Shown here: positions 4,456 through 55,218 of the stretch, in pieces
How the letters are laid out: each line of letters opens with the position of its first letter
How positions within the stretch are numbered: position 1 is the stretch's first letter
IMG/VR virus record: IMGVR_UViG_3300042337_000069
Location: 1 to 55,218 of that record
DNA from: a virus
DNA: 55,218 nt
Direction: 5' to 3' (one strand)
The notes under the pieces: model-generated
The model's database searches: none
What the model was told of the DNA's origin: nothing
What the model saw: the letters and a program-made list of their open reading frames with translations, nothing else
Position numbers and translations under genes: made by a program

Positions 4456-4863
4456 ATGACATGGATATATGAAAACAACCCCTTTGAAGAAATTCCCGAC
4501 GGTATCATTGGATATGTGTATGAGATTACATGTATACCCAATGGTAAACGATACATCGGCAAAAAGAACTTTTACTTTTCCAAGACGAAACAAGTCAAAG
4601 GTAAAAAGAAAAAGTTCAAGGTCGACTCTGATTGGAAGACCTACTTTGGTTCTAACAAAGAGATTCAAGAGCATGTTGCCCTATACGGTGAACACAGGTT
4701 TGAAAGAAAGATTTTGCGCCTGTGTTCATCTAAGGGTGAGATGTCTTATTACGAAACCAAATTCATCTTTGAAACCGATGCGATCATATCTGAACAATAT
4801 TACAATGACTGGTGCATGTGCCGAGTTCGTAGGTCGCATGTTGTGAAGAAAGGCAAATCATGA
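4456..4863 (+). CDS. GIY-YIG family endonuclease-like protein, 135 aa
   Basis: The N-terminal half has the GIY-YIG core: GYVYEIT at residues 19-25 and RYIGKK at 32-37, followed by a basic stretch (Lys-rich 47-54) and a conserved Glu (YYETKFI near 98) suited to metal binding. T4-like phages often carry free-standing GIY-YIG homing nucleases of the Seg type. At 135 residues this one has room for the catalytic domain and little DNA-recognition domain. It sits between small acidic and glutaredoxin genes and overlaps the latter by four bases, so it is integrated in the operon. Whether it is an active homing enzyme is unknown. Confidence 0.8.
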   Translation: MTWIYENNPFEEIPDGIIGYVYEITCIPNGKRYIGKKNFYFSKTKQVKGKKKKFKVDSDWKTYFGSNKEIQEHVALYGEHRFERKILRLCSSKGEMSYYETKFIFETDAIISEQYYNDWCMCRVRRSHVVKKGKS

Positions 4864-5087
4864 GAATCATAATCTATTCCAAGGACCAATGTCCTTACTG
4901 TGACAATGCCCGAGACCTACTAAAGCGTTTTGGAAAGGAATACATTGAATACAAGTTGGACAAGGACTTTTCGAGAGCCATGATCAAGGAAGTATTCCCA
5001 ACAGCTAAAACATTCCCAATAATAACACTTGACAAAACCTACATCGGGGGTTATAATGATCTTTGTGAAATCGCAAAGGAATGGTAA
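4860..5087 (+). CDS. Glutaredoxin, 75 aa
   Basis: The small thioredoxin-fold protein has the dithiol active site Cys11-Pro-Tyr-Cys14, the cis-proline loop Thr51-Phe-Pro53 and the glutathione-binding Gly63-Gly64-Tyr motif, in the usual order for glutaredoxins of about 75-85 residues. It probably delivers electrons, directly or through glutathione, to the C-terminal cysteine pair of the class II reductase encoded upstream. The stop TAA overlaps the start chosen for the next gene. Confidence 0.93.
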   Translation: MRIIIYSKDQCPYCDNARDLLKRFGKEYIEYKLDKDFSRAMIKEVFPTAKTFPIITLDKTYIGGYNDLCEIAKEW

Positions 5088-12889: not shown

Positions 12890-14113
12890 ATGGGTTTTCA
12901 GTTCGTAGGTGGTCAGGGTCGTGCGCCGCTAAAGATGTGGTGTGATGGTGTCGAAGTCGAACATGATGCTCGCACCCAGTTAGAGAACATAGCGTCCCTG
13001 CCGTTCATTTATAAGCATGTGGCGGTTATGCCGGACGTTCACTTGGGTAAGGGTGCAACGGTTGGTTCTGTTATTGCTACGAAGGGTGCTGTTGTTCCCG
13101 CCGCTGTCGGTGTCGATATCGGTTGTGGTATGATGGCTGTTCGTTTGTCACTGACGGCGAATGATTTACCCGACGATCTTTCTTCGCTGCGTTCTCATAT
13201 AGAGTCCGTAGTGCCGCATGGTCGCACCGACAACGGTGGAAAGAATGATCGTGGAACTTGGGGTGTTGTGCCGCAGAAGGTGATTGGTCAGTGGAATCGT
13301 TTAGCTGATCGCTATGCGAAGATTGTCGAAAAGCACCCGAAGATCGCTTCGCATAAGACGGCGGAGTTTATGGGTACCCTGGGAACGGGGAACCACTTTA
13401 TCGAGTTGTGTCTTGACGAGGACGACTGTGTGTGGGTAATGCTGCACTCTGGTTCTCGTGGTGTTGGCAACAAGATTGGTACGTATTTCATTGAAGCTGC
13501 GAAGCGTGAAATGGAGCGTTATCATATCCTGCCGTATCTGCCGGATCAGGACTTATCCTATCTTGTAGAGCATACGACCCTGTTTGATGATTATGTGGAG
13601 GCTGTATCCTGGGCACAGGAGTTTGCTGCTCTCAACCGTCAGGTGATGATGGATGCGGTGCTTGACGTTCTGCGTCAGCGTTTGCCGCTGTTTGTTGTCT
13701 CTGATGATCGTGCGGTGAACTGTCATCACAACTATATTGAAAAGGAGAACCACTTTGGTGCTAACGTTCTCGTAACCCGTAAGGGTGCGGTTCGTGCCCG
13801 TGCTGGCGATCTTGGTATCATACCGGGGTCAATGGGAACTGGTTCTTTTATCGTTCGTGGTAAGGGTAACCAGGAGTCGTTTTGTTCATGTTCTCATGGC
13901 GCTGGTCGTCGTATGTCCCGCACGGCGGCACGTAAGGCAATCACGCTAGAAGATCATATCAAGGCGACCGAGGGTATCGAGTGCCGTAAGGATGCTGATG
14001 TGATTGACGAGTCGCCGGCTGCTTACAAGGATATCGGTGCTGTCATGGCAGCGCAGGACGACCTTGTGGAAATCGTGCATCGTCTTCGTCAGGTCCTGAA
14101 CGTGAAGGGGTAA
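12890..14113 (+). CDS. rtcB: RNA-splicing ligase RtcB, 407 aa
   Basis: RtcB joins RNA 2',3'-cyclic phosphate (or 3'-phosphate) ends to 5'-OH ends with GTP and manganese. All signature residues are present: Asp49-Val-His51, the metal Cys79 (VGVDIGCGM), GTGNHFIE with His169, His186 in HSGSRG, His279/His280, and the guanylated His336 in SHGAGRR. The length matches Escherichia coli RtcB (408 residues) and nothing is truncated. The gene follows a run of very small genes in the accessory zone and ends before a terminator. A phage could use it to repair tRNAs cut by host anticodon nucleases, which leave exactly these ends. T4 solves the same problem with Pnkp and Rnl1. This role is inferred. Confidence 0.97.
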   Translation: MGFQFVGGQGRAPLKMWCDGVEVEHDARTQLENIASLPFIYKHVAVMPDVHLGKGATVGSVIATKGAVVPAAVGVDIGCGMMAVRLSLTANDLPDDLSSLRSHIESVVPHGRTDNGGKNDRGTWGVVPQKVIGQWNRLADRYAKIVEKHPKIASHKTAEFMGTLGTGNHFIELCLDEDDCVWVMLHSGSRGVGNKIGTYFIEAAKREMERYHILPYLPDQDLSYLVEHTTLFDDYVEAVSWAQEFAALNRQVMMDAVLDVLRQRLPLFVVSDDRAVNCHHNYIEKENHFGANVLVTRKGAVRARAGDLGIIPGSMGTGSFIVRGKGNQESFCSCSHGAGRRMSRTAARKAITLEDHIKATEGIECRKDADVIDESPAAYKDIGAVMAAQDDLVEIVHRLRQVLNVKG

Positions 14114-22485: not shown

Positions 22486-23013
22486 ATGACCCAGCCAGGA
22501 ATCATCTACTTTCACGGTTACAATTCGTCTCCTAATACCGACAAGGTTACGGAACTTCGTAAGCACTTTTCCGAAGTGTATGCTTTTCCTATCGATGTTG
22601 ATCCTGACAAGTCTCTGCCCTATCTAGAGGCAGAGATCGATCATATTCTTGCTTCCTCTATCAACTCCGATAAGCCTCTTGTTTTCGTCGGCACTTCTCT
22701 GGGAGCGTGGTATGCTGGTCATCTCGCCAAGATGTTTTATTCACCTGCCGTTCTAATCAATCCTTGTTGGTCATTCGATGCTGTCAAGGTTGACTTGGGT
22801 ATTGCTGGTGAAATCAAGGCAAAGTATGAAACGCTAGGATTTGAGTATCCTGAAAATACGACATTCTTCATTGCTCAGAATGACGAGGTAATCGACTTCT
22901 CACGCTTTCATCCTCTAAACACTCGCACCATATATAATAAGAATGCGGATCATCGATTCAACGGTGAGCCGTTTGAACGGGTGATTGAGTTATTGAAGCA
23001 TGAAGAATTTTAG
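22486..23013 (+). CDS. YqiA/UPF0227-like alpha/beta-hydrolase, 175 aa
   Basis: The start YFHGYNSSP, the nucleophile elbow Gly69-Thr-Ser71-Leu-Gly73, Asp133 in AQNDEVID and His156 in DHRF reproduce the YqiA-type esterase order and length. Such enzymes hydrolyse acyl or thioester bonds; the substrate here is unknown. It has the strongest promoter in the window, so early high expression is likely. The stop region overlaps the nuclease gene. Confidence 0.85.
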   Translation: MTQPGIIYFHGYNSSPNTDKVTELRKHFSEVYAFPIDVDPDKSLPYLEAEIDHILASSINSDKPLVFVGTSLGAWYAGHLAKMFYSPAVLINPCWSFDAVKVDLGIAGEIKAKYETLGFEYPENTTFFIAQNDEVIDFSRFHPLNTRTIYNKNADHRFNGEPFERVIELLKHEEF

Positions 23014-23677
23014 ACATATCCACAACAATCCGGATATCTGTAGTTTAAACAGAATTGAATACAATGGTAAGAGATACTATGAGTCACCTGACGGTAAAAG
23101 ATTACCGTCGGTGACTACTTTTTTATCACATTTCAAGAAAGACTCCATAATCAAATGGCGCAAGCGAGTTGGTGAAGAGGAAGCAAACAAGATATCCGCT
23201 AAAGCAACTAGAAGAGGCACTAAATTTCATTCGCTAATGGAAGCATACCTAGGTAATCAAGACCCCTCTACATTTCTTACCGAAGATTTGATGCCTGATA
23301 TGAAACATCATTTCAATTTGATGAAACCAAAGCTTGACAGGATCGACAATATACATTATATTGAGGCTATGCTTTATAGCGAAACGATTGGTCTTGCAGG
23401 ACAGGTAGATTGTATCGCAGAGTTTGACGGTATTCCTTCTATCATCGATTTCAAGACGGCTAACAAGATTAAGAAAGAAGAGTGGATCGAAGACTACTTT
23501 CTACAGACAACAGCATATTCGCTCATGTATGAAGACATGACAGGGGTGCAGGCAAAACAGATTGTAATTCTTATTTCGGTAGATCACGAACTACCACAAG
23601 TCTTTGTGAAAGATCGTCGTGATTATGTGCCTTTATTGGCAGAACGTCTCAGAGAGTTTAGGAGAATAGCGCCATGA
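23000..23677 (+). CDS. RecB/MGME1-like PD-(D/E)XK exonuclease, 225 aa
   Basis: The motif set is: Gly73-Thr-Lys-Phe-His, Glu122, GLAGQVDCIAEF with Asp137, and IIDFKTA with Asp150 and Lys152, followed by YFLQTTAYS. This is the order seen in MGME1-like phage exonucleases related to the RecB nuclease domain. It may process DNA ends in recombination or packaging. The length is typical. It starts 14 bases before the esterase stop and overlaps the next ORF by four. Confidence 0.88.
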   Translation: MKNFRHIHNNPDICSLNRIEYNGKRYYESPDGKRLPSVTTFLSHFKKDSIIKWRKRVGEEEANKISAKATRRGTKFHSLMEAYLGNQDPSTFLTEDLMPDMKHHFNLMKPKLDRIDNIHYIEAMLYSETIGLAGQVDCIAEFDGIPSIIDFKTANKIKKEEWIEDYFLQTTAYSLMYEDMTGVQAKQIVILISVDHELPQVFVKDRRDYVPLLAERLREFRRIAP

Positions 23678-24299: not shown

Positions 24300-24490
24300 T
24301 AAAAGAACTGATCATACTGGCGCAGGTGGCTAATACAATTCCTCCTACTGACATTATGAGAAATGACACTCCGACTTATTCATGGGAAAGGCCAACACAG
24401 CCACCGAGATATCAAGTTCCCGCAACTGGTATTTACTCGGCAGGATCTAGACCTCCTCCGATTTCGTTTGAAGAGGTTGAAGTAGAATAA
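24296..24490 (+). CDS. Proline-rich hypothetical protein, 64 aa
   Basis: Four-base overlap with the exported protein gene. Residues 23-58 hold many Pro (PTQPPRYQVP, SRPPPIS); the N-terminus MIKELIILAQVANTIPP is mildly hydrophobic. Proline-rich short proteins occur among spanin components, but no signal or lipobox is evident. Ends just before the tmRNA. Confidence 0.55.
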   Translation: MIKELIILAQVANTIPPTDIMRNDTPTYSWERPTQPPRYQVPATGIYSAGSRPPPISFEEVEVE

Positions 24491-24494
24491 ATAG

Positions 24495-24566
24495 AATTGC
24501 CAAAGGTCGTTGAGAGACGAAACATAGGTTTCTTGGACGTGGGTGCGATTCCCACCGTCTCCACCA
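24495..24566 (+). ncRNA. ssrA: tmRNA acceptor piece (3' tRNA-like half) of a permuted ssrA
   Basis: The bases up to CCA at 24564-24566 form the 3' half of a tRNA-Ala-like domain: T stem GTGGG (24539-24543)/CCCAC (24551-24555) with loop TGCGATT, then acceptor strand CGTCTCC (24556-24562) and ACCA. CGTCTCC pairs over all seven bases with GGGGACG at 24640-24646, with a G-U wobble at the third pair, the alanine identity element. The CCA is genomically encoded. The 5' end of the mature piece is estimated. The T-loop second base is G where U is normal. It lies upstream of the coding piece, so the gene is circularly permuted. Confidence 0.85.
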
Positions 24567-24639
24567 TAGATACATCGTAAAGATTGCCGATTAATGATCG
24601 TATATCGCTTAGGTACCATAAGCACGATGTATCTTTGAT
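24567..24639 (+). other. tmRNA intervening segment, removed on maturation
   Basis: The 73 bases between the CCA end and the coding-piece 5' end contain a perfect 11-bp inverted repeat, AGATACATCGT (24568-24578)/ACGATGTATCT (24624-24634), that stacks on the acceptor stem, plus an inner hairpin GCTTA (24607-24611)/TAAGC (24619-24623). This matches the expected processed loop of permuted tmRNA precursors. Confidence 0.75.
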
Positions 24640-24797
24640 GGGGACGAACAGGTTCGACAGGATTCAGTAAGGTCGTAAGGAGACTGTAGGCATTTATAGG
24701 TGCAGCAAATGATAACGCACCTTACGAAATGGCTCTAGCAGCTTGATCGTTTGGGTATGGGTTCCACCTCGAAACAGAACGGGCCCACTAACAACAA
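24640..24797 (+). ncRNA. ssrA: tmRNA coding piece with peptide tag of a permuted ssrA
   Basis: Starts GGGGACG, followed by AACAGGTTCGACAGG, the conserved D-loop-like hallmark of tmRNA. The tag frame runs from GCA 24702 or 24705 to TGA 24744-24746 and encodes ANDNAPYEMALAA, beginning like bacterial tags (AND) and ending in the ALAA that ClpXP recognises. A stem TGGGTTC (24758-24764)/GGGCCCA (24781-24787) follows. The 3' end is estimated from the next gene's ribosome binding region. tmRNA frees stalled ribosomes with SmpB; a phage copy would secure translation late in infection or replace host tagging. Confidence 0.88.
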
Positions 24798-24808
24798 TAG
24801 GATTACAA

Positions 24809-25009
24809 ATGTCCGATATCAAAGAAAGTTTCTTCACCAAAGTAGACGAATTGCGTGAAAACAAAACATTTTTACCCATTCTTCCTGACTATAAAAAGAT
24901 AAAGTCAAAGAAGGAACCATGGGGCAAATCTCACAAGCCTAAACCAGTGGATCCTGATAAGATGGATGAAATCGGCAGAAAGATTGGAAAAGTAAAGAAT
25001 AAAGAGTGA
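24809..25009 (+). CDS. Hypothetical charged protein, 66 aa
   Basis: ATG 24809 follows ATAGGA at 24797-24802. An in-frame ATG at 24743 lies in the tmRNA tag region and is not used here. The protein is Lys-rich with a C-terminal GKVKNKE tail (DYKKIKSKKEPWGK in the middle). Unrecognised. Confidence 0.55.
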   Translation: MSDIKESFFTKVDELRENKTFLPILPDYKKIKSKKEPWGKSHKPKPVDPDKMDEIGRKIGKVKNKE

Positions 25010-25349: not shown

Positions 25350-25544
25350 ATGAGCAACAAAGACAAATATACAGGTATGCGTGACTTTGAGTTTGCCCTA
25401 AGCACAAACGTTTATATTTGTGCTGTAGCAGGTGCCATTCTCGGTGCTATTCTTGGATACTGGGCAACATCAACGATTGAGATTACTCTTGCTTCTGCAA
25501 TTACGTTCTTTGTCCTCTCAGGCATCTTTGGAATGTTTGTATGA
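25350..25544 (+). CDS. Two-pass membrane protein, 64 aa
   Basis: Two hydrophobic helices with small-residue packing motifs: about residues 20-40 (NVYICAVAGAILGAILGYW, GxxxGxxxG) and 46-63 (TLASAITFFVLSGIFGMF). Such small membrane proteins may oligomerise. It directly precedes, with a four-base overlap, the gp33-like gene. Role unknown; a holin is possible but not supported by neighbours. Confidence 0.65.
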   Translation: MSNKDKYTGMRDFEFALSTNVYICAVAGAILGAILGYWATSTIEITLASAITFFVLSGIFGMFV

Positions 25545-25765
25545 CGCCGGACGACATTCAAAAATTTAGTCTAGAGATTGAAGAGATTGTCTATATGAAG
25601 GACATTCCATATATTGATGCGGTTGTTATGTATTGTGAGCAGACAGGCTTCGAAGTCGAAACGGCCGCTAAACTTATCTCCGGCGTCCTCAAATCCAAAA
25701 TTAAATTAGAAGCAGAACAACTACACTTCCTCAAAAAGACAAGCACCTCACAACTTCCCTTTTAA
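25541..25765 (+). CDS. 33: gp33-like late transcription coactivator, 74 aa
   Basis: The short helical protein MTPDDIQKFSLEIEEIVYMKD..., with MYCEQTGFEVETAAKLI and KIKLEAEQLHFLKK, has the size and pattern of gp33 relatives in T4-like phages. In T4, gp33 links the sliding clamp to RNA polymerase for late transcription. The neighbourhood supports this: gene 59 and gene 32 follow, the same order (33-59-32) as in T4. The similarity is weak and judged by eye. Confidence 0.6.
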   Translation: MTPDDIQKFSLEIEEIVYMKDIPYIDAVVMYCEQTGFEVETAAKLISGVLKSKIKLEAEQLHFLKKTSTSQLPF

Positions 25766-26686: not shown

Positions 26687-27304
26687 ATGAAACACTTCTC
26701 TGGATACGGAGCCTATCTGTTATTCTTGGCGCTGAGAACTCATTTCACTCGGCCCAAGTATGACTTCTTTCAAATGCACGGCAAACTCCGTGCAACTAAG
26801 GAGGCGTATCTAAAGCGAAGAGATAAGTCTCTCTTTGAGAAGATTGCGAGAACATATAATGCCGAAGAGTTAAAGACATTCTACATAGCGAACTTTCTTG
26901 ACGATCGGCATTATATCACCGACATGCTAGACGAGGATGCACATGGATCATTCTACGAACTACAAAAGCGACAACAATCACTCTCATACATTTTTAAAAA
27001 TGACCTTGATGTCATATTTGAACATGGTTGCAAATCTGCTTTTGATTGCCATGATGGGGATTACCCTCATCTTCTCAATATGGTTATGCGTAGAACTGTT
27101 TCTTTTGAGTCTGCGACTATCCTAAATGACTACGTTCCCTACACGGAGAAATTCACTAAATACCTTGGAGACGATGATATCGTCTGGTCAAGAGTTGCTT
27201 TGAAACTCCGCAAGTATAGACCATTCATAAAGTATGATGCCGAGAAATTCAAAGCCATACTGAAGGAGAAGGTCCATGAATACACTACAGGGGAACGCTT
27301 CTGA
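26687..27304 (+). CDS. 59: gp59-like helicase loader, 205 aa
   Basis: T4 gp59 loads the gp41 helicase onto forked, gp32-coated DNA. The N-terminal pattern YDFFQMHGKLRATKEAYLKRR and FEKIARTYNAEELKTFYIANF matches gp59 (YDVIKYNW..., KRRDKYFFQKLSEKY), and the C-terminal half (SFESATILNDYVPY, VALKLRKYRPFI) follows the same order. Length is close to T4 gp59 (217). It lies just upstream of gene 32, as in T4. Confidence 0.88.
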   Translation: MKHFSGYGAYLLFLALRTHFTRPKYDFFQMHGKLRATKEAYLKRRDKSLFEKIARTYNAEELKTFYIANFLDDRHYITDMLDEDAHGSFYELQKRQQSLSYIFKNDLDVIFEHGCKSAFDCHDGDYPHLLNMVMRRTVSFESATILNDYVPYTEKFTKYLGDDDIVWSRVALKLRKYRPFIKYDAEKFKAILKEKVHEYTTGERF

Positions 27305-27936: not shown

Positions 27937-27965
27937 TTGACAGGACGAGATTGTTCTGTTAGAAT
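27937..27965 (+). promoter_or_regulatory. Promoter of gene 32, TTGACA-17-TAGAAT
   Basis: TTGACA 27937-27942 and TAGAAT 27960-27965, spacer 17. It resembles the RNase H promoter. The expected leader from about 27972 to 28026 is AT-rich, as in T4, where gp32 represses its own message through the leader. A candidate late box (CTAAATA, 27926) lies just upstream. Confidence 0.8.
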
Positions 27966-28026
27966 ACACTTCTTATATAATGATAATGTGGATAAGAAAA
28001 CATACAACGTAATACGGAGAAATAAT

Positions 28027-28953
28027 ATGAACTTTTCAAACCTCAAGAAACAGTCTAAGGACTTCTCAATCCTTCTAAAGAAGGTTGATGAACTCAACAA
28101 GCCCGCCTACGAAAAGGACGACACCACAGACAATTACTGGAAGCCCACTCAGGACAAGGCTGGTAATGCTCTTGCTGTTATTCGTTTTCTTCCTGGTCCT
28201 GCCGTCGATGGTGAAGATGCTCTTCCCTGGGAACAGTATTGGGATCACGGTTTCCAGAACAAGGTAACCGGTAAGTGGTATATTGAGAAGTCACTAACGA
28301 CTCTCGGTCAGAAGGACCCCGTTTCTGAGTATAACACCCAGCTTTGGAACTCAACCGCTGATGAAAACTCTCCTGAACGAAAGCAGGCGAGAGACCAGAA
28401 GCGTCGTCTTCACTACGTTTCCAACATTCAGGTGATTAGCGATCCAAAGAATCCTGAGAACGAAGGCAAGGTCTTCCTGTTCAAGTATGGAAAGAAAATC
28501 TTTGATAAGATTACAAAGATGATGAACCCAGACCTTGAATCAGAACAGAAGATTAATCCTTTTGATCTATGGGCTGGTGCACCATTCAAGCTAAAGATGG
28601 TGCGTGTGTCTGGTTTTCCAAACTATGACGAATCAACCTTCCTAACGCCTGGTCCTCTGAGTGAAGACGATGCAGAACTAGAGCGTATTTGGAAGTCCGA
28701 ATATTCTCTTAAGGAGATTACTGATCCTAAGAACTTCAAGACTTATGATCAGCTTAAGGCTCGTCTAGATGATGTTCTCGGTCTTTCTACTCAGTCAGCT
28801 ACCCGTCGCAAGGTAGCAGATACTATTGAGGAAGATGTTGAGGATGTTCCTTTCACTGAGAGCAAGCCTGTTTCTCGTAAGCCTGCGGCACCTGTTGTCG
28901 AGGAAGAAGAGGATGATGACTTCGCAATGTTTAAGAAACTAGCAGAAGACTAA
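28027..28953 (+). CDS. 32: gp32-like single-stranded DNA-binding protein, 308 aa
   Basis: Binds and protects single-stranded DNA in replication, recombination and repair. The order is typical of gp32: basic N-terminal B domain (MNFSNLKKQSKDFSILLKK), OB-fold core (LAVIRFLPGP..., PWEQYWDHGF, RRLHYVSNIQVISDP, GKVFLFKYGKKIFDKI) and acidic C-terminal A domain (EEEEDDDF...). The start is ATG 28027, preceded by ACGGAGA. The protein has no cysteine: where T4-like relatives have a zinc site, there are Ser89 and DPVS (97-100). It ends before a strong terminator. Confidence 0.93.
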   Translation: MNFSNLKKQSKDFSILLKKVDELNKPAYEKDDTTDNYWKPTQDKAGNALAVIRFLPGPAVDGEDALPWEQYWDHGFQNKVTGKWYIEKSLTTLGQKDPVSEYNTQLWNSTADENSPERKQARDQKRRLHYVSNIQVISDPKNPENEGKVFLFKYGKKIFDKITKMMNPDLESEQKINPFDLWAGAPFKLKMVRVSGFPNYDESTFLTPGPLSEDDAELERIWKSEYSLKEITDPKNFKTYDQLKARLDDVLGLSTQSATRRKVADTIEEDVEDVPFTESKPVSRKPAAPVVEEEEDDDFAMFKKLAED

Positions 28954-28988: not shown

Positions 28989-31900
28989 TTATCCCATTAT
29001 CTTTCTGATGTTCATATCACCAGGCAAATCTTCACCTGAATTGATTCGACTGAATGCTCGATAGATCGAAGGGTTATCGGCAGGTGATTGTATCATTTTC
29101 ATATTCGAATCATGATTTTCATTTGTCACATGCGAAACTTGTTGCATCATAGGCAATGATCGTCCTTGTGATTCTGTAGATGATGCTACGGCGGCGGCCA
29201 TTGCTGTCATGTTTGTAGTATGCATTGCGTCTGAGCTAGGAGCAGGACCAGGTGCTTGCATCATTGATCCTCTTACAGGCGATGTATCAGGGAATATAGA
29301 CCTCTGTGGTACCATAGCAGATGGGGCAATAACTGTTGCTGAAAAGTCTCTAAGACCCGCACCTCTAATAGGAAATGTACCTACAGGACTAGTGGTTGGA
29401 AAAACGTTAGTTCCAATTGTGTTGGGAACAGCACCAGGTATATTTGTCATTGATACATTTCTAAGCGCCGATCCAACTGGTGCTGGTTGACTGCTTATGT
29501 CCATAGACCCAGGAGTATATGTAGGACCATAATCTTGTGCTGATGATATACTAGACATACCAGGAGTGGTCATGTTTCCGAGACCTGTTAGACGACCTAT
29601 ACTTTGTTTCAAACTTCTAGCATTGTCGGCATATGATTTTGCATAAGACCTCATCGTTTCACCAAAAGATGGTGCTGCCGATGCTTGTGCTATCTGAGTG
29701 GGTGATGTCACTTGTGAAACAGAAGGAGTAGGTGTCGTCTCGGGTGCAGAGGCGAACATTGTATCTCTTCTTGCCTTCTCACTTTTCATATAATCAGCAT
29801 ACTTATTCATATCAAGCTTATTGACCGATGCGACTCCTGGTATCTGCGGATCTTGTCCTAAGATTGCTTGTGCTTCTGGTAAGAAACGATTAGCATACAT
29901 CTTAGGATACTTTTTCATAAAGTCTCCTTTTGCTCTTGCATATGACATGACCTGATCTTCTGTTGACTGACCGATTGTTGCAAGCATTTTCGGATTCTGT
30001 AGAATGCCCTTGGTGTATCCTCTTTGTTGAATAGATCCACCCCATAGTGCTTCCTGAAAGCGTGGATCTTGTGTGTTATATCCGAGTGCGGTGGCCATTC
30101 TTAGATTAGGCTCGTAGTGTGTTCTACTCAGAAACTTTCTTTGTGCTTCTGCAAATGCAGTAGGGTCTTCGTTGGCAATCTGTTTGTAGATTTGATCAAA
30201 CTGAGGACTAGCGAGTTTAGCTTTACCAAATCTACCACGATATGCCGCTGCTTCTGGACTATTGATAAACTCTTTGAGTGTGCCTGTTCTAGAGGCAATT
30301 TGATGTTCGCCATATGACTTACCACCAGAGTCTTGCTTGCCTGATGAAATAGTCGCCACACCAAAGTTGGCCGCATCACCATACTTACCAGTTTCAAACT
30401 GACGAGTAACATGGCCTATGTCTGGTCTCAATGAAGGCAACATTCTTTCATCTATTTCAGGAATAGGCATTGATGATACGGAACCTTTTTTGCGTCCTCT
30501 CGAACCACCACCAATGCCCTCGCCTGCTCCTTTGCCGGCGCCAAGTGACCCAATCAATGGCATAATAAATCCCATTGCTGTCGTGATAAGTCCTAGTGGT
30601 GTAGCAGATTGCATTCCACCAAAACCACCCATCATACCCATCATCATTCCCATTGGGTTGCCCTGCATGGCACCCATTAGATTTGGTGCACCTCCTAATA
30701 TCCCTAATACTGTTGCTGTCTGTGATTGCCCTTCAATGGGCCCTTGTTGATTCATAGCAGCAGACAATTGTTCTTCTGGTGTCATTGGCACAGGAGCAAG
30801 TGAGTCCATTTCTTCTACTTTTCCAGTAATGCCCGGAGTGCCCGATGCAGTGCCGATGATCTGTTTTTCTGAATCTTTTGCAACAGTTTTACCATAAGAA
30901 AGTGCCTCTTGTGATATCTCGCTGTGCACCTTACCACCTGATGATATTAGACCAAATGATGTTGTACCACCACCTGGAATTGGGTATGCGTTCTTATCAA
31001 CCCATCTTGTTCTAGCAGGTTGTCCATTGAACTGTTCTAGTAGAAGAAACTTGCCTTCTTGATTAGGTGCTGTGAGTGCTACGCCTGTATGGTAACCAGC
31101 ATGTTCTCTATCACCGCCTGGATTGTTATATTGCTTTGTTGCTACTACTTGTCCGGCTTTAATATCACCATCTACAACTGTCCATCCGCCTGATCGGCCA
31201 ATGTTGGGGTTGAATGCTTTACCTAGCGTAGCACATTGTTGAGCGTTTCTTGTGTCATATAGACTGTTATCTTGTGGAACAACGAAGCCTGAAACGACTT
31301 TAAATGATCCGCCTGATGTGCTTCCGCCACCACCTGCCGACCCTGTGGTTGTCTGGCCGCCTGCTTGTTGAGGAGTTTGTCCTTTTGCTTGCTCAGTTGA
31401 TGGTGTTGTGTCTTCAATACTTGCGGCAGCCTTTTGTGCTGTTCCCAAATACTGTCTATATCCACCGTCGGTGAATCCACCCCAATGTCTAATACCATTA
31501 GGTGTTTTATGGTAAAGATAATAAGCAACCTTAGCGTTCTTAGCGGGATCATATAAATCCTCTACACTATTAACACCGGCATATCTCATTTCAGGACTGC
31601 CAAAAGGATGTGCATTGATATTAATCTGAAATAGACCATATGATCTTTCTCTAGATGTTTTATCATTAGACGCTCTAATATTACCAGCGGACTCCTGCAT
31701 ACCGACGGCGGCCATCAGAGTCGCATCTTTATGACTAAATCCTGCTTGTTTTAGAATCTTGACGTATTGTGCTGCTGAAAATGATCCTTTAACATTACCA
31801 CTACCTCCGCCATCCATTGAGACATTGTTACCACCAGAATACTTGTCACGCATCTTCTCAAGCCAAGACCCTTCTGATCTTAGTCGATCATTAACACCTT

Positions 31901-32114
31901 GCTGCCAGAGTGAGGTTCTTTCTGCTGATGCTTTTGAAATAGCATCTCTGAATCCACCAATGTCCGGTGTACCTCGTCTAAAGTAATCAGGGAAGAGTTC
32001 GGCAATCTGAGTAGGAGTCAACCCGTTCAAAAGACCAGGGTTGCTTTTGATAGCTCTATTTCTTTCGGCTGCGCTAAACTGTGCTAGTCTATTATAGTTT
32101 GATTTCTTTGCCAT
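28989..32114 (-). CDS. Multi-domain tail-associated peptidoglycan hydrolase, 1041 aa
   Basis: Three wall-cutting domains can be read. Residues ~112-225 are a lytic-transglycosylase/goose-lysozyme-like domain with Glu141 (MQESAGN) and SYGLFQIN at 158-165. Residues ~280-390 are a CHAP/BPSL0067-like amidase domain with Cys294 (QQCA) and His342 (GYHTGVAL). Residues ~565-750 resemble VgrG-linked muramidases: Glu574 (RQFETGKYG), then GGKSYGEHQIAS at 597-608. A hydrophobic Gly/Met-rich segment (~469-536) lies between the second and third and could insert in membranes. The rest is low complexity. It follows the gp26-like operon, in the position where lambda has its tape measure. It probably opens the cell wall during infection. 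Confidence 0.85.
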   Translation of the reverse strand: MAKKSNYNRLAQFSAAERNRAIKSNPGLLNGLTPTQIAELFPDYFRRGTPDIGGFRDAISKASAERTSLWQQGVNDRLRSEGSWLEKMRDKYSGGNNVSMDGGGSGNVKGSFSAAQYVKILKQAGFSHKDATLMAAVGMQESAGNIRASNDKTSRERSYGLFQININAHPFGSPEMRYAGVNSVEDLYDPAKNAKVAYYLYHKTPNGIRHWGGFTDGGYRQYLGTAQKAAASIEDTTPSTEQAKGQTPQQAGGQTTTGSAGGGGSTSGGSFKVVSGFVVPQDNSLYDTRNAQQCATLGKAFNPNIGRSGGWTVVDGDIKAGQVVATKQYNNPGGDREHAGYHTGVALTAPNQEGKFLLLEQFNGQPARTRWVDKNAYPIPGGGTTSFGLISSGGKVHSEISQEALSYGKTVAKDSEKQIIGTASGTPGITGKVEEMDSLAPVPMTPEEQLSAAMNQQGPIEGQSQTATVLGILGGAPNLMGAMQGNPMGMMMGMMGGFGGMQSATPLGLITTAMGFIMPLIGSLGAGKGAGEGIGGGSRGRKKGSVSSMPIPEIDERMLPSLRPDIGHVTRQFETGKYGDAANFGVATISSGKQDSGGKSYGEHQIASRTGTLKEFINSPEAAAYRGRFGKAKLASPQFDQIYKQIANEDPTAFAEAQRKFLSRTHYEPNLRMATALGYNTQDPRFQEALWGGSIQQRGYTKGILQNPKMLATIGQSTEDQVMSYARAKGDFMKKYPKMYANRFLPEAQAILGQDPQIPGVASVNKLDMNKYADYMKSEKARRDTMFASAPETTPTPSVSQVTSPTQIAQASAAPSFGETMRSYAKSYADNARSLKQSIGRLTGLGNMTTPGMSSISSAQDYGPTYTPGSMDISSQPAPVGSALRNVSMTNIPGAVPNTIGTNVFPTTSPVGTFPIRGAGLRDFSATVIAPSAMVPQRSIFPDTSPVRGSMMQAPGPAPSSDAMHTTNMTAMAAAVASSTESQGRSLPMMQQVSHVTNENHDSNMKMIQSPADNPSIYRAFSRINSGEDLPGDMNIRKIMG

Positions 32115-54566: not shown

Positions 54567-55218
54567 ATGGGATTAACAACCGTAAATCTTACTGACACAT
54601 TCGATCAGCAAAGACTAAAGATCAATCAATCTATCCTTTATCTAAACGACCAGAATTTGTTGTTGAACTTAGCGTTTGATACAACCAATTCAGCATTTGG
54701 TGTGGCCAATGCGGCCTATAACAACGCCAACATAGGGTTTGTTTCTGCTAATAACTACTCTGGATTTATGGCAAACAGCGGTAACGCATTTGCTGTATCA
54801 GTTGGTATAGCAGGTAACGTTTATGCAAATCTTGTAGGTACTTCTGGTAATACATATGCTAATCTTGTAGGTGTATCAGGAAACACATACGCAAATCTTG
54901 TAGGTACTTCTGGTAATACATATGCTAATCTAGTAGGTATATCAGGCAATGCTTATGCTAATCTGGTAGGAATTTCTGGTAATACATATGCAAATACAGT
55001 CGGACTTGCAGGAAATGCTTATGCTCTTTTCATCGATACTGCATCTAATACAGCAGCCTACGCAAACATCAGAACTTCTACAGTAGCAGCAAATGCCTAT
55101 GCTTTGAGCATTGATTCAGCATCTAATACCGCTGCTTATGCCAACATCTTGGCATCAACCGTTGCAGCAAATGCCTATGCTTTGAGCATTGATTCAGCAT
55201 CTAATACCGCTGCTTATG
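54567..55218 (+). CDS. Tail fibre-like protein, N-terminal part, cut by window end
   Basis: ATG 54567 starts an open frame that has no stop to the window end (217 codons). The N-terminus (TTVNLTDTFDQQRLKINQSI) is typical of T4-like fibre and attachment proteins. After residue 78 come 11-residue and 26-residue repeats, listed separately, that would form a fibrous shaft. The receptor-binding end is beyond the window. Confidence 0.8.
   Translation, partial: MGLTTVNLTDTFDQQRLKINQSILYLNDQNLLLNLAFDTTNSAFGVANAAYNNANIGFVSANNYSGFMANSGNAFAVSVGIAGNVYANLVGTSGNTYANLVGVSGNTYANLVGTSGNTYANLVGISGNAYANLVGISGNTYANTVGLAGNAYALFIDTASNTAAYANIRTSTVAANAYALSIDSASNTAAYANILASTVAANAYALSIDSASNTAAY
54801..55030 (+). repeat. 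Tandem 33-bp coding repeats (11 residues)
   Basis: Seven units of VG[ITVL][SA]GN[VTA]YANL follow each other in frame, first unit at 54801, with strong nucleotide conservation. The units probably form a beta- or coiled fibre shaft. Confidence 0.9.
55030..55218 (+). repeat. Tandem 78-bp coding repeats (26 residues)
   Basis: At least two full units and a partial one with the theme SIDSASNTAAYANI, then STVAANAYAL. Copies 78 bases apart are near-identical. It continues past the window. Confidence 0.85.

Follow-up and report, generated by a model that had tools for sequence, protein, structure and literature searches.

We propose, with a probability of about 0.88, that the virus record IMGVR_UViG_3300042337_000069 encodes a functional, circularly permuted two-piece tmRNA (ssrA) of the alphaproteobacterial type, and that this gene, which spans positions ~24500-24790 upstream of the gp33-gp59-gp32 block, is a standing element of that region in related phages. 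The proposal rests on the anatomy of the gene, its conservation, the covariation of its stems, the retention of its tag and its synteny. Viral two-piece tmRNA genes are already known; what is new here is the covariation, the set of tags, an ATAAATA motif at a fixed position and the finding of no phage SmpB. The gene itself is of modest interest, and the least expected result, surprising to specialists, is that relatives of this phage carry an HNH endonuclease gene inside the spacer of their permuted tmRNA genes.

Results

The window, by which we mean the whole stretch of DNA analysed, comprises positions 1-55,218 of the record (55,218 nt, linear), which is probably a genome fragment. Judged by its PHROG matches, which include RNR, RtcB, DNA ligase, PhoH, a PDDEXK exonuclease, gp33, gp59, gp32, tail tube and baseplate genes, the virus is a T4-like myovirus. 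The RtcB RNA ligase (12890-14113; phrog_1075, 4.5e-150) is a possible RNA-repair partner, and a 1041-aa protein encoded among the tail genes on the minus strand (28989-32114) has C-terminal SLT lysozyme-like and T6SS VgrG3-like domains.

An Rfam scan of the whole window returned two matches only, both at the tmRNA locus: RF04321 (tmRNA_permuted) at 24505-24746, with 95.2 bits against a gathering cut-off of 47 (E = 3e-17), and RF01849 (alpha_tmRNA) at 24464-24789, with 59.7 bits against a cut-off of 50. An earlier note, made from the sequence alone, had read the locus as a permuted phage tmRNA of the alphaproteobacterial type and had made this reading depend on an alpha-tmRNA match above threshold; both models now bear it out, and the T-arm, CGTCTCC-ACCA, GGGGACG, the G-U at position 3 and the 11-bp stem all lie where that note had placed them (Table 1). 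The order of the parts is permuted: the T-arm and CCA come first, and the acceptor 5' strand and the tag follow. The two acceptor strands pair at 7/7 positions and include G3-U70, the alanine identity pair of tRNA-Ala. ARAGORN, which the note had also suggested running, did call a tmRNA at this locus but got its 3' part and tag wrong; we rejected the call (24474-24949, tag VRYQRKFLHQSRRIA), the coding part of which lies beyond the real tag, inside the next ORF.

Table 1. Positions of the tmRNA gene, its parts and the neighbouring genes in the window
Feature	Position	Strand	Basis or remark
PDDEXK-type exonuclease, upstream of tmRNA	23000..23677	+	phrog_298 3.8e-73; syntenic with Melnitz
AATAAATA, T4-type late-promoter-like motif upstream of tmRNA	24486..24493	+	ATAAATA scan; fixed offset in relatives
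Acceptor (tRNA-like 3') piece	24505..24566	+	RF04321 match start 24505; sequence
T-arm GTGGG-TGCGATT-CCCAC	24539-24555	+	sequence
Acceptor 3' strand CGTCTCC	24556-24562	+	sequence
ACCA (encoded CCA 24564-24566)	24563-24566	+	sequence
Intervening segment (spacer), 73 nt, no ORF	24567..24639	+	between CCA and acceptor 5' strand
11-bp terminal stem, 5' arm	24568..24578	+	pairs without mismatch with 24624-24634; covariation in the 29-sequence alignment
11-bp terminal stem, 3' arm	24624..24634	+	conserved UGAU lies between this arm and G1
Coding (mRNA-like) piece with acceptor 5' strand, D-loop-like GGTTCGAC, tag frame and structured 3' tail	24640..24789	+	RF04321 to 24746, RF01849 to 24789; 3' end approximate
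Acceptor 5' strand GGGGACG	24640-24646		
Tag reading frame AANDNAPYEMALAA-stop, 14 aa, resume codon GCA 24702	24702..24746	+	translation; relatives' resume-codon alignment
gp33-like late transcription coactivator, downstream of tmRNA	25541..25765	+	phrog_254 1.3e-21; syntenic with Melnitz
gp59-like helicase loader	26687..27304	+	phrog_269 1.7e-49
gp32-like single-strand DNA-binding protein	27937..28953	+	phrog_224 8.3e-102; query for syntenic relatives

Pairing was scored in a gapless alignment of 29 distinct phage sequences that comprised the T-arm, the acceptor strands and both ends of the spacer. Stem cells were paired in 94.8% of cases, compared with 73.8% in shuffles and 43-58% when the strands were slid, values in which the pairing of the acceptor and T-stem is partly selected because the extraction script demanded full pairing there, while the spacer stem was not a criterion. 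Changes on both sides of a pair occurred in 134 cells versus 37 in shuffles, with a covariation score of 0.56 versus 0.15, and covariation is present in all three stems. Acceptor pair 3-70 is G-U in 29/29 sequences and pairs 4-6 change with compensation, and in the spacer stem both-side changes are found at all 11 pairs. Since every stem covaries across these sequences and the Rfam match has an E value as low as 3e-17, chance can be excluded.

To place the gene in its genomic context, we collected 80 viral loci via gp32 and searched whole records with RF04321. A permuted tmRNA is found in the same position, between 1.3 and 5.3 kb upstream of gp32 and with other ORFs in between, in 26/26 relatives with at least 5.7 kb of upstream sequence, a count that includes two loci (L050 and L051) missed by the T-stem filter of the script and covered by other searches. 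The order of genes in the window is also that of phage Melnitz, in which PhoH, the PDDEXK nuclease, tmRNA, gp33, gp59 and gp32 follow one another. No permuted tmRNA was found in P-SSM2, S-SRM01 and DSL-LC02, which are cyanophages close in gp32, nor in Caulobacter Cr30 and Ochrobactrum OC, and of the eight other related phage records examined, that of the Rhizobium phage RHph_I1_18 alone contained one. Candidates with low pairing (6/7 in the acceptor, 4/5 in the T-stem) were dropped as spurious, and a 19-mer match in L082 proved to be a chance match within a GC-rich protein gene.

The tag frame begins with an alanine resume codon and ends in a hydrophobic degradation signal, and the single GCA of relatives such as L083 aligns with the GCA at 24702. 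The earlier note had the coordinates and the stop of this frame right but gave the peptide as the 13-aa ANDNAPYEMALAA, dropping one Ala from the 14-aa form. Approximately 21 distinct tags were found in phages, nearly all of which keep ANDN...ALAA, or something close to it, around a variable centre. The centre of the window tag, APYEM, had been singled out as unusual, and it is indeed absent from the bacterial tags sampled, although variable centres are normal across the phage clade. As a whole, the window tag had no match among 24 distinct tags from 108 alphaproteobacterial loci that a tag-pattern search had picked out.

The motif ATAAATA, which we take for the T4-type late promoter of this phage on the strength of its placement, occurs at five sites in the window, all on the plus strand (24487, 35099, 40306, 45729 and 54422). 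Set against the ORF list, three of these lie 13-27 nt before late-gene starts, the ORF at 54567 has one 146 nt upstream of it, and the fifth precedes the tmRNA. In 24/33 distinct phage loci, the acceptor 3' strand is preceded at a constant distance of 66-70 nt by [TA]ATAAATA, and TTGACA is often found ~17 nt before this motif; in the window promoter the -35 side is weak (TTGAAG). These features suggest that transcription of the tmRNA is either late or mixed early and late. A search for SmpB genes in the window and eight relatives, among them the three complete phages Melnitz, Mosig and Phosso, found none, and therefore the SmpB of the host is presumably used.

Phage spacers range from 23 to 531 nt and have a hypervariable interior. 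In 14 contigs of relatives of the window phage, which represent at least six tmRNA types, a spacer of 480-530 nt contains HNH-endonuclease sequence. Loci of this kind are L011-L013, L024, L028, L029, L031, L284-L295, L307 and L313, and an HNH-type ORF of 144-156 aa lies in the spacer (482-531 nt where measured) in L284-L288, L289, L290-L292, L293-L295 and L313; the copy in L307 was rejected as an intact gene, given that its frame is not intact, and is probably broken. The spacer ORF matches a homing endonuclease family (phrog_655, 6.7e-15) and reaches 20.6 bits with Pfam HNH, just below the cut-off of 21.4. Judged by RF04321, whose gathering score is passed over the whole HNH-bearing span in L024, L031, L289 and L313, the tmRNA around the insert is intact. 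In the L286 and L290 groups the terminal stem is kept with 10-13 pairs, and the stop codon of the ORF overlaps the conserved UGAU before G1. Between intact copies dN/dS is 0.14-0.31, and therefore the HNH protein has been maintained under purifying selection. In one group, the Shine-Dalgarno sequence and the last codons of the ORF form the terminal stem, an arrangement by which processing and nuclease translation might be coupled. Members of this HNH family also adjoin the tmRNA gene in divergent orientation, at 63-90 nt, in six loci (L368, L372, L373, L374, L375 and L379), and lie 36 nt from it on the same strand in L301/L377, where the tmRNA is beta-type. Other spacers gave further ORFs: one in L056 (2248-2481) gave a match to the C-terminal end of phrog_4098, which suggests a captured gene fragment, and another small one is found in L015 (786-992). 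The spacer ORF of Phosso had no clear coding signal.

Discussion

Two-piece tmRNAs have been published for the Methylophilales phage Melnitz and the Pelagibacter phage Mosig, and a survey of phage tmRNAs counted 53 two-piece forms among 133 structures (PMC9004378). The earlier note took most phage tmRNAs to be one-piece, but the two-piece form is less unusual than it implied, and since Melnitz has one in the same slot, the window gene belongs to an already known kind. Melnitz and the window share the T4-like myophage background, the slot between PhoH/PDDEXK and gp33-gp59-gp32 and a permuted, alpha-like tmRNA; they differ in tag centre, in spacer sequence and in the wider tmRNA sequence, with Melnitz having the tag ANDNYVPVDYALAA and a 142-nt spacer instead of 73 nt. 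A glutamine riboswitch has been reported in the 3' part of the Melnitz tmRNA (PMC9004378), and none was detected in the window by the Rfam scan at gathering threshold. Mosig is likewise a T4-like myophage with a permuted tmRNA (RF04321, 93.6 bits). The Sinorhizobium phage Phosso, which like RHph_I1_18 is a phage of alphaproteobacteria with a permuted tmRNA, is 89% identical to the window over 64 nt at the 3' end of the coding piece; however, it is a 469-kb phage with a 410-nt spacer, and the likeness shown is one of the tmRNA, not of gp32-slot synteny. In Phosso (L086), the permuted tmRNA lies at ~4467-5064 and is missing from the annotated features of the record.

With the Caulobacter-type two-piece ssrA (RF01849/RF04321) the window gene shares the permuted order, G3-U70, the encoded CCA and the ANDN...ALAA style of tag. 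The differences lie in the spacer, which measures 22-118 nt in the 108 alphaproteobacterial loci compared with 23-531 nt in phages, and in the anticodon-analogue motif of the phages, which had no match in 84,980 bacterial genomes; the RF04321 spans listed for alphaproteobacterial genomes are ~184-351 nt. Because of the missing match for the anticodon-analogue region, neither a donor lineage nor a host can be named, and function is read across some divergence from bacterial ssrA. By its sequence, the phage tmRNA is therefore best described as alpha-like, yet a lineage of its own. The earlier note had also regarded the tmRNA as the best clue to the host in the window: it does point to alphaproteobacteria, but weakly, since Melnitz infects a non-alphaproteobacterial host and has an alpha-like tmRNA.

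By analogy with the tmRNAs of Caulobacter and E. coli, we infer how cleavage, charging, delivery by SmpB and tagging would proceed. Starting at a phage promoter that includes the late motif ATAAATA, transcription would yield a single precursor, in which RNase P would cut before G24640 and host tRNA-processing enzymes would trim the 3' end to just after the CCA at 24566. The spacer stem, stacked on the acceptor stem, may aid this processing, by which the intervening segment would be removed, with the two pieces expected to remain paired after cleavage. Host AlaRS would then charge the CCA end, and host SmpB would bring the tmRNA to ribosomes stalled on broken mRNA, where the stalled chain would be tagged with AANDNAPYEMALAA and subsequently degraded, its ALAA end being suited to ClpXP-type proteases. 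The likely benefit is that host ribosomes, when they stall on mRNA that was broken in the course of infection, would be recycled with a tmRNA supply that the phage itself owns.

Other readings of the locus have to be weighed against this one. The gene could encode a decoy that inhibits trans-translation by the host, as described for phage DS6A, whose tag-less tmRNA-like form inhibits endogenous tmRNA (PMC11915505), and the centre of the window tag is unlike those of the 24 bacterial tags sampled; nonetheless, the tag frame, resume codon and ALAA end, for which a decoy would have no need, are kept across the clade, and we regard this explanation as unlikely. Slightly less probable still is that the permuted RNA works uncleaved, in one piece. 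A closing stem is always present in the intervening segment, so that an uncut RNA could still fold, but the encoded CCA requires a free 3' end for aminoacylation, the segment varies freely in length and interior, as would be expected of discarded RNA, and the permuted tmRNAs of bacteria are cleaved, according to Keiler et al. (2000) as cited in PMC9004378. It is very improbable that the locus acts mainly in cis, as a leader or processing element for the gp33 transcript: although the tmRNA always lies 5' of gp33 on the same strand and is probably on the same transcript, its distance from gp32 varies with intervening ORFs, and such an element would need neither tag frame nor CCA. Equally improbable, and already largely refuted, is a recently captured and decaying host ssrA devoid of phage function, for which the entry of ssrA fragments by tmRNA-targeted integration (discussed in PMC9004378) offers a route, given that every adequately covered relative carries the gene with covarying stems and intact tags, that no integrase was found among the proteins scanned and that the phage-specific motif is absent from the bacterial genomes searched.

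We consider it fairly probable that the spacer of phage permuted tmRNA genes is a safe harbour, in or directly beside which one family of HNH homing endonucleases has repeatedly settled, because tRNA-processing enzymes cut the spacer out and insertion costs the tmRNA nothing. In this scenario, tRNA processing would play the role that self-splicing plays for intron-encoded endonucleases, and the 73-nt spacer of the window would be an empty allele. The distribution of this HNH family suggests that it targets tmRNA genes; as a homing endonuclease it would be expected to cut an empty tmRNA spacer allele and move into it. A homing-endonuclease gene has been described within a self-splicing group I intron in the T-loop of a standard-form tmRNA (PMC11915505). 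There, too, an endonuclease gene sits inside a tmRNA gene and the tmRNA is spared; our cases differ in that the HNH gene occupies the spacer of the permuted form, with removal presumably by tRNA processing. In open-access full text we found no report of an HNH or homing endonuclease in the spacer of a permuted tmRNA, and such a spacer-borne gene appears to be unreported. These results raise a separate question that can be tested directly: whether the loss of the spacer during processing makes permuted tmRNA genes both tolerant of homing endonucleases and a target for them.

For the uncultured T4-like clade to which the window phage belongs, our data indicate that the tmRNA belongs to the core replication and late-transcription block as a fixed and co-evolving component and is not an occasional pick-up, and phage-run ribosome rescue thereby becomes a testable part of infection. 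Some loci also bear traces of rearrangement around the gene: in L010, L015 and L037, the spacer end and an acceptor-like strand are repeated (GTATCTTTGATGGAGACG or similar) ~55-85 nt 5' of the acceptor piece, directly before the promoter motif, as if left by a past gene duplication or recombination.
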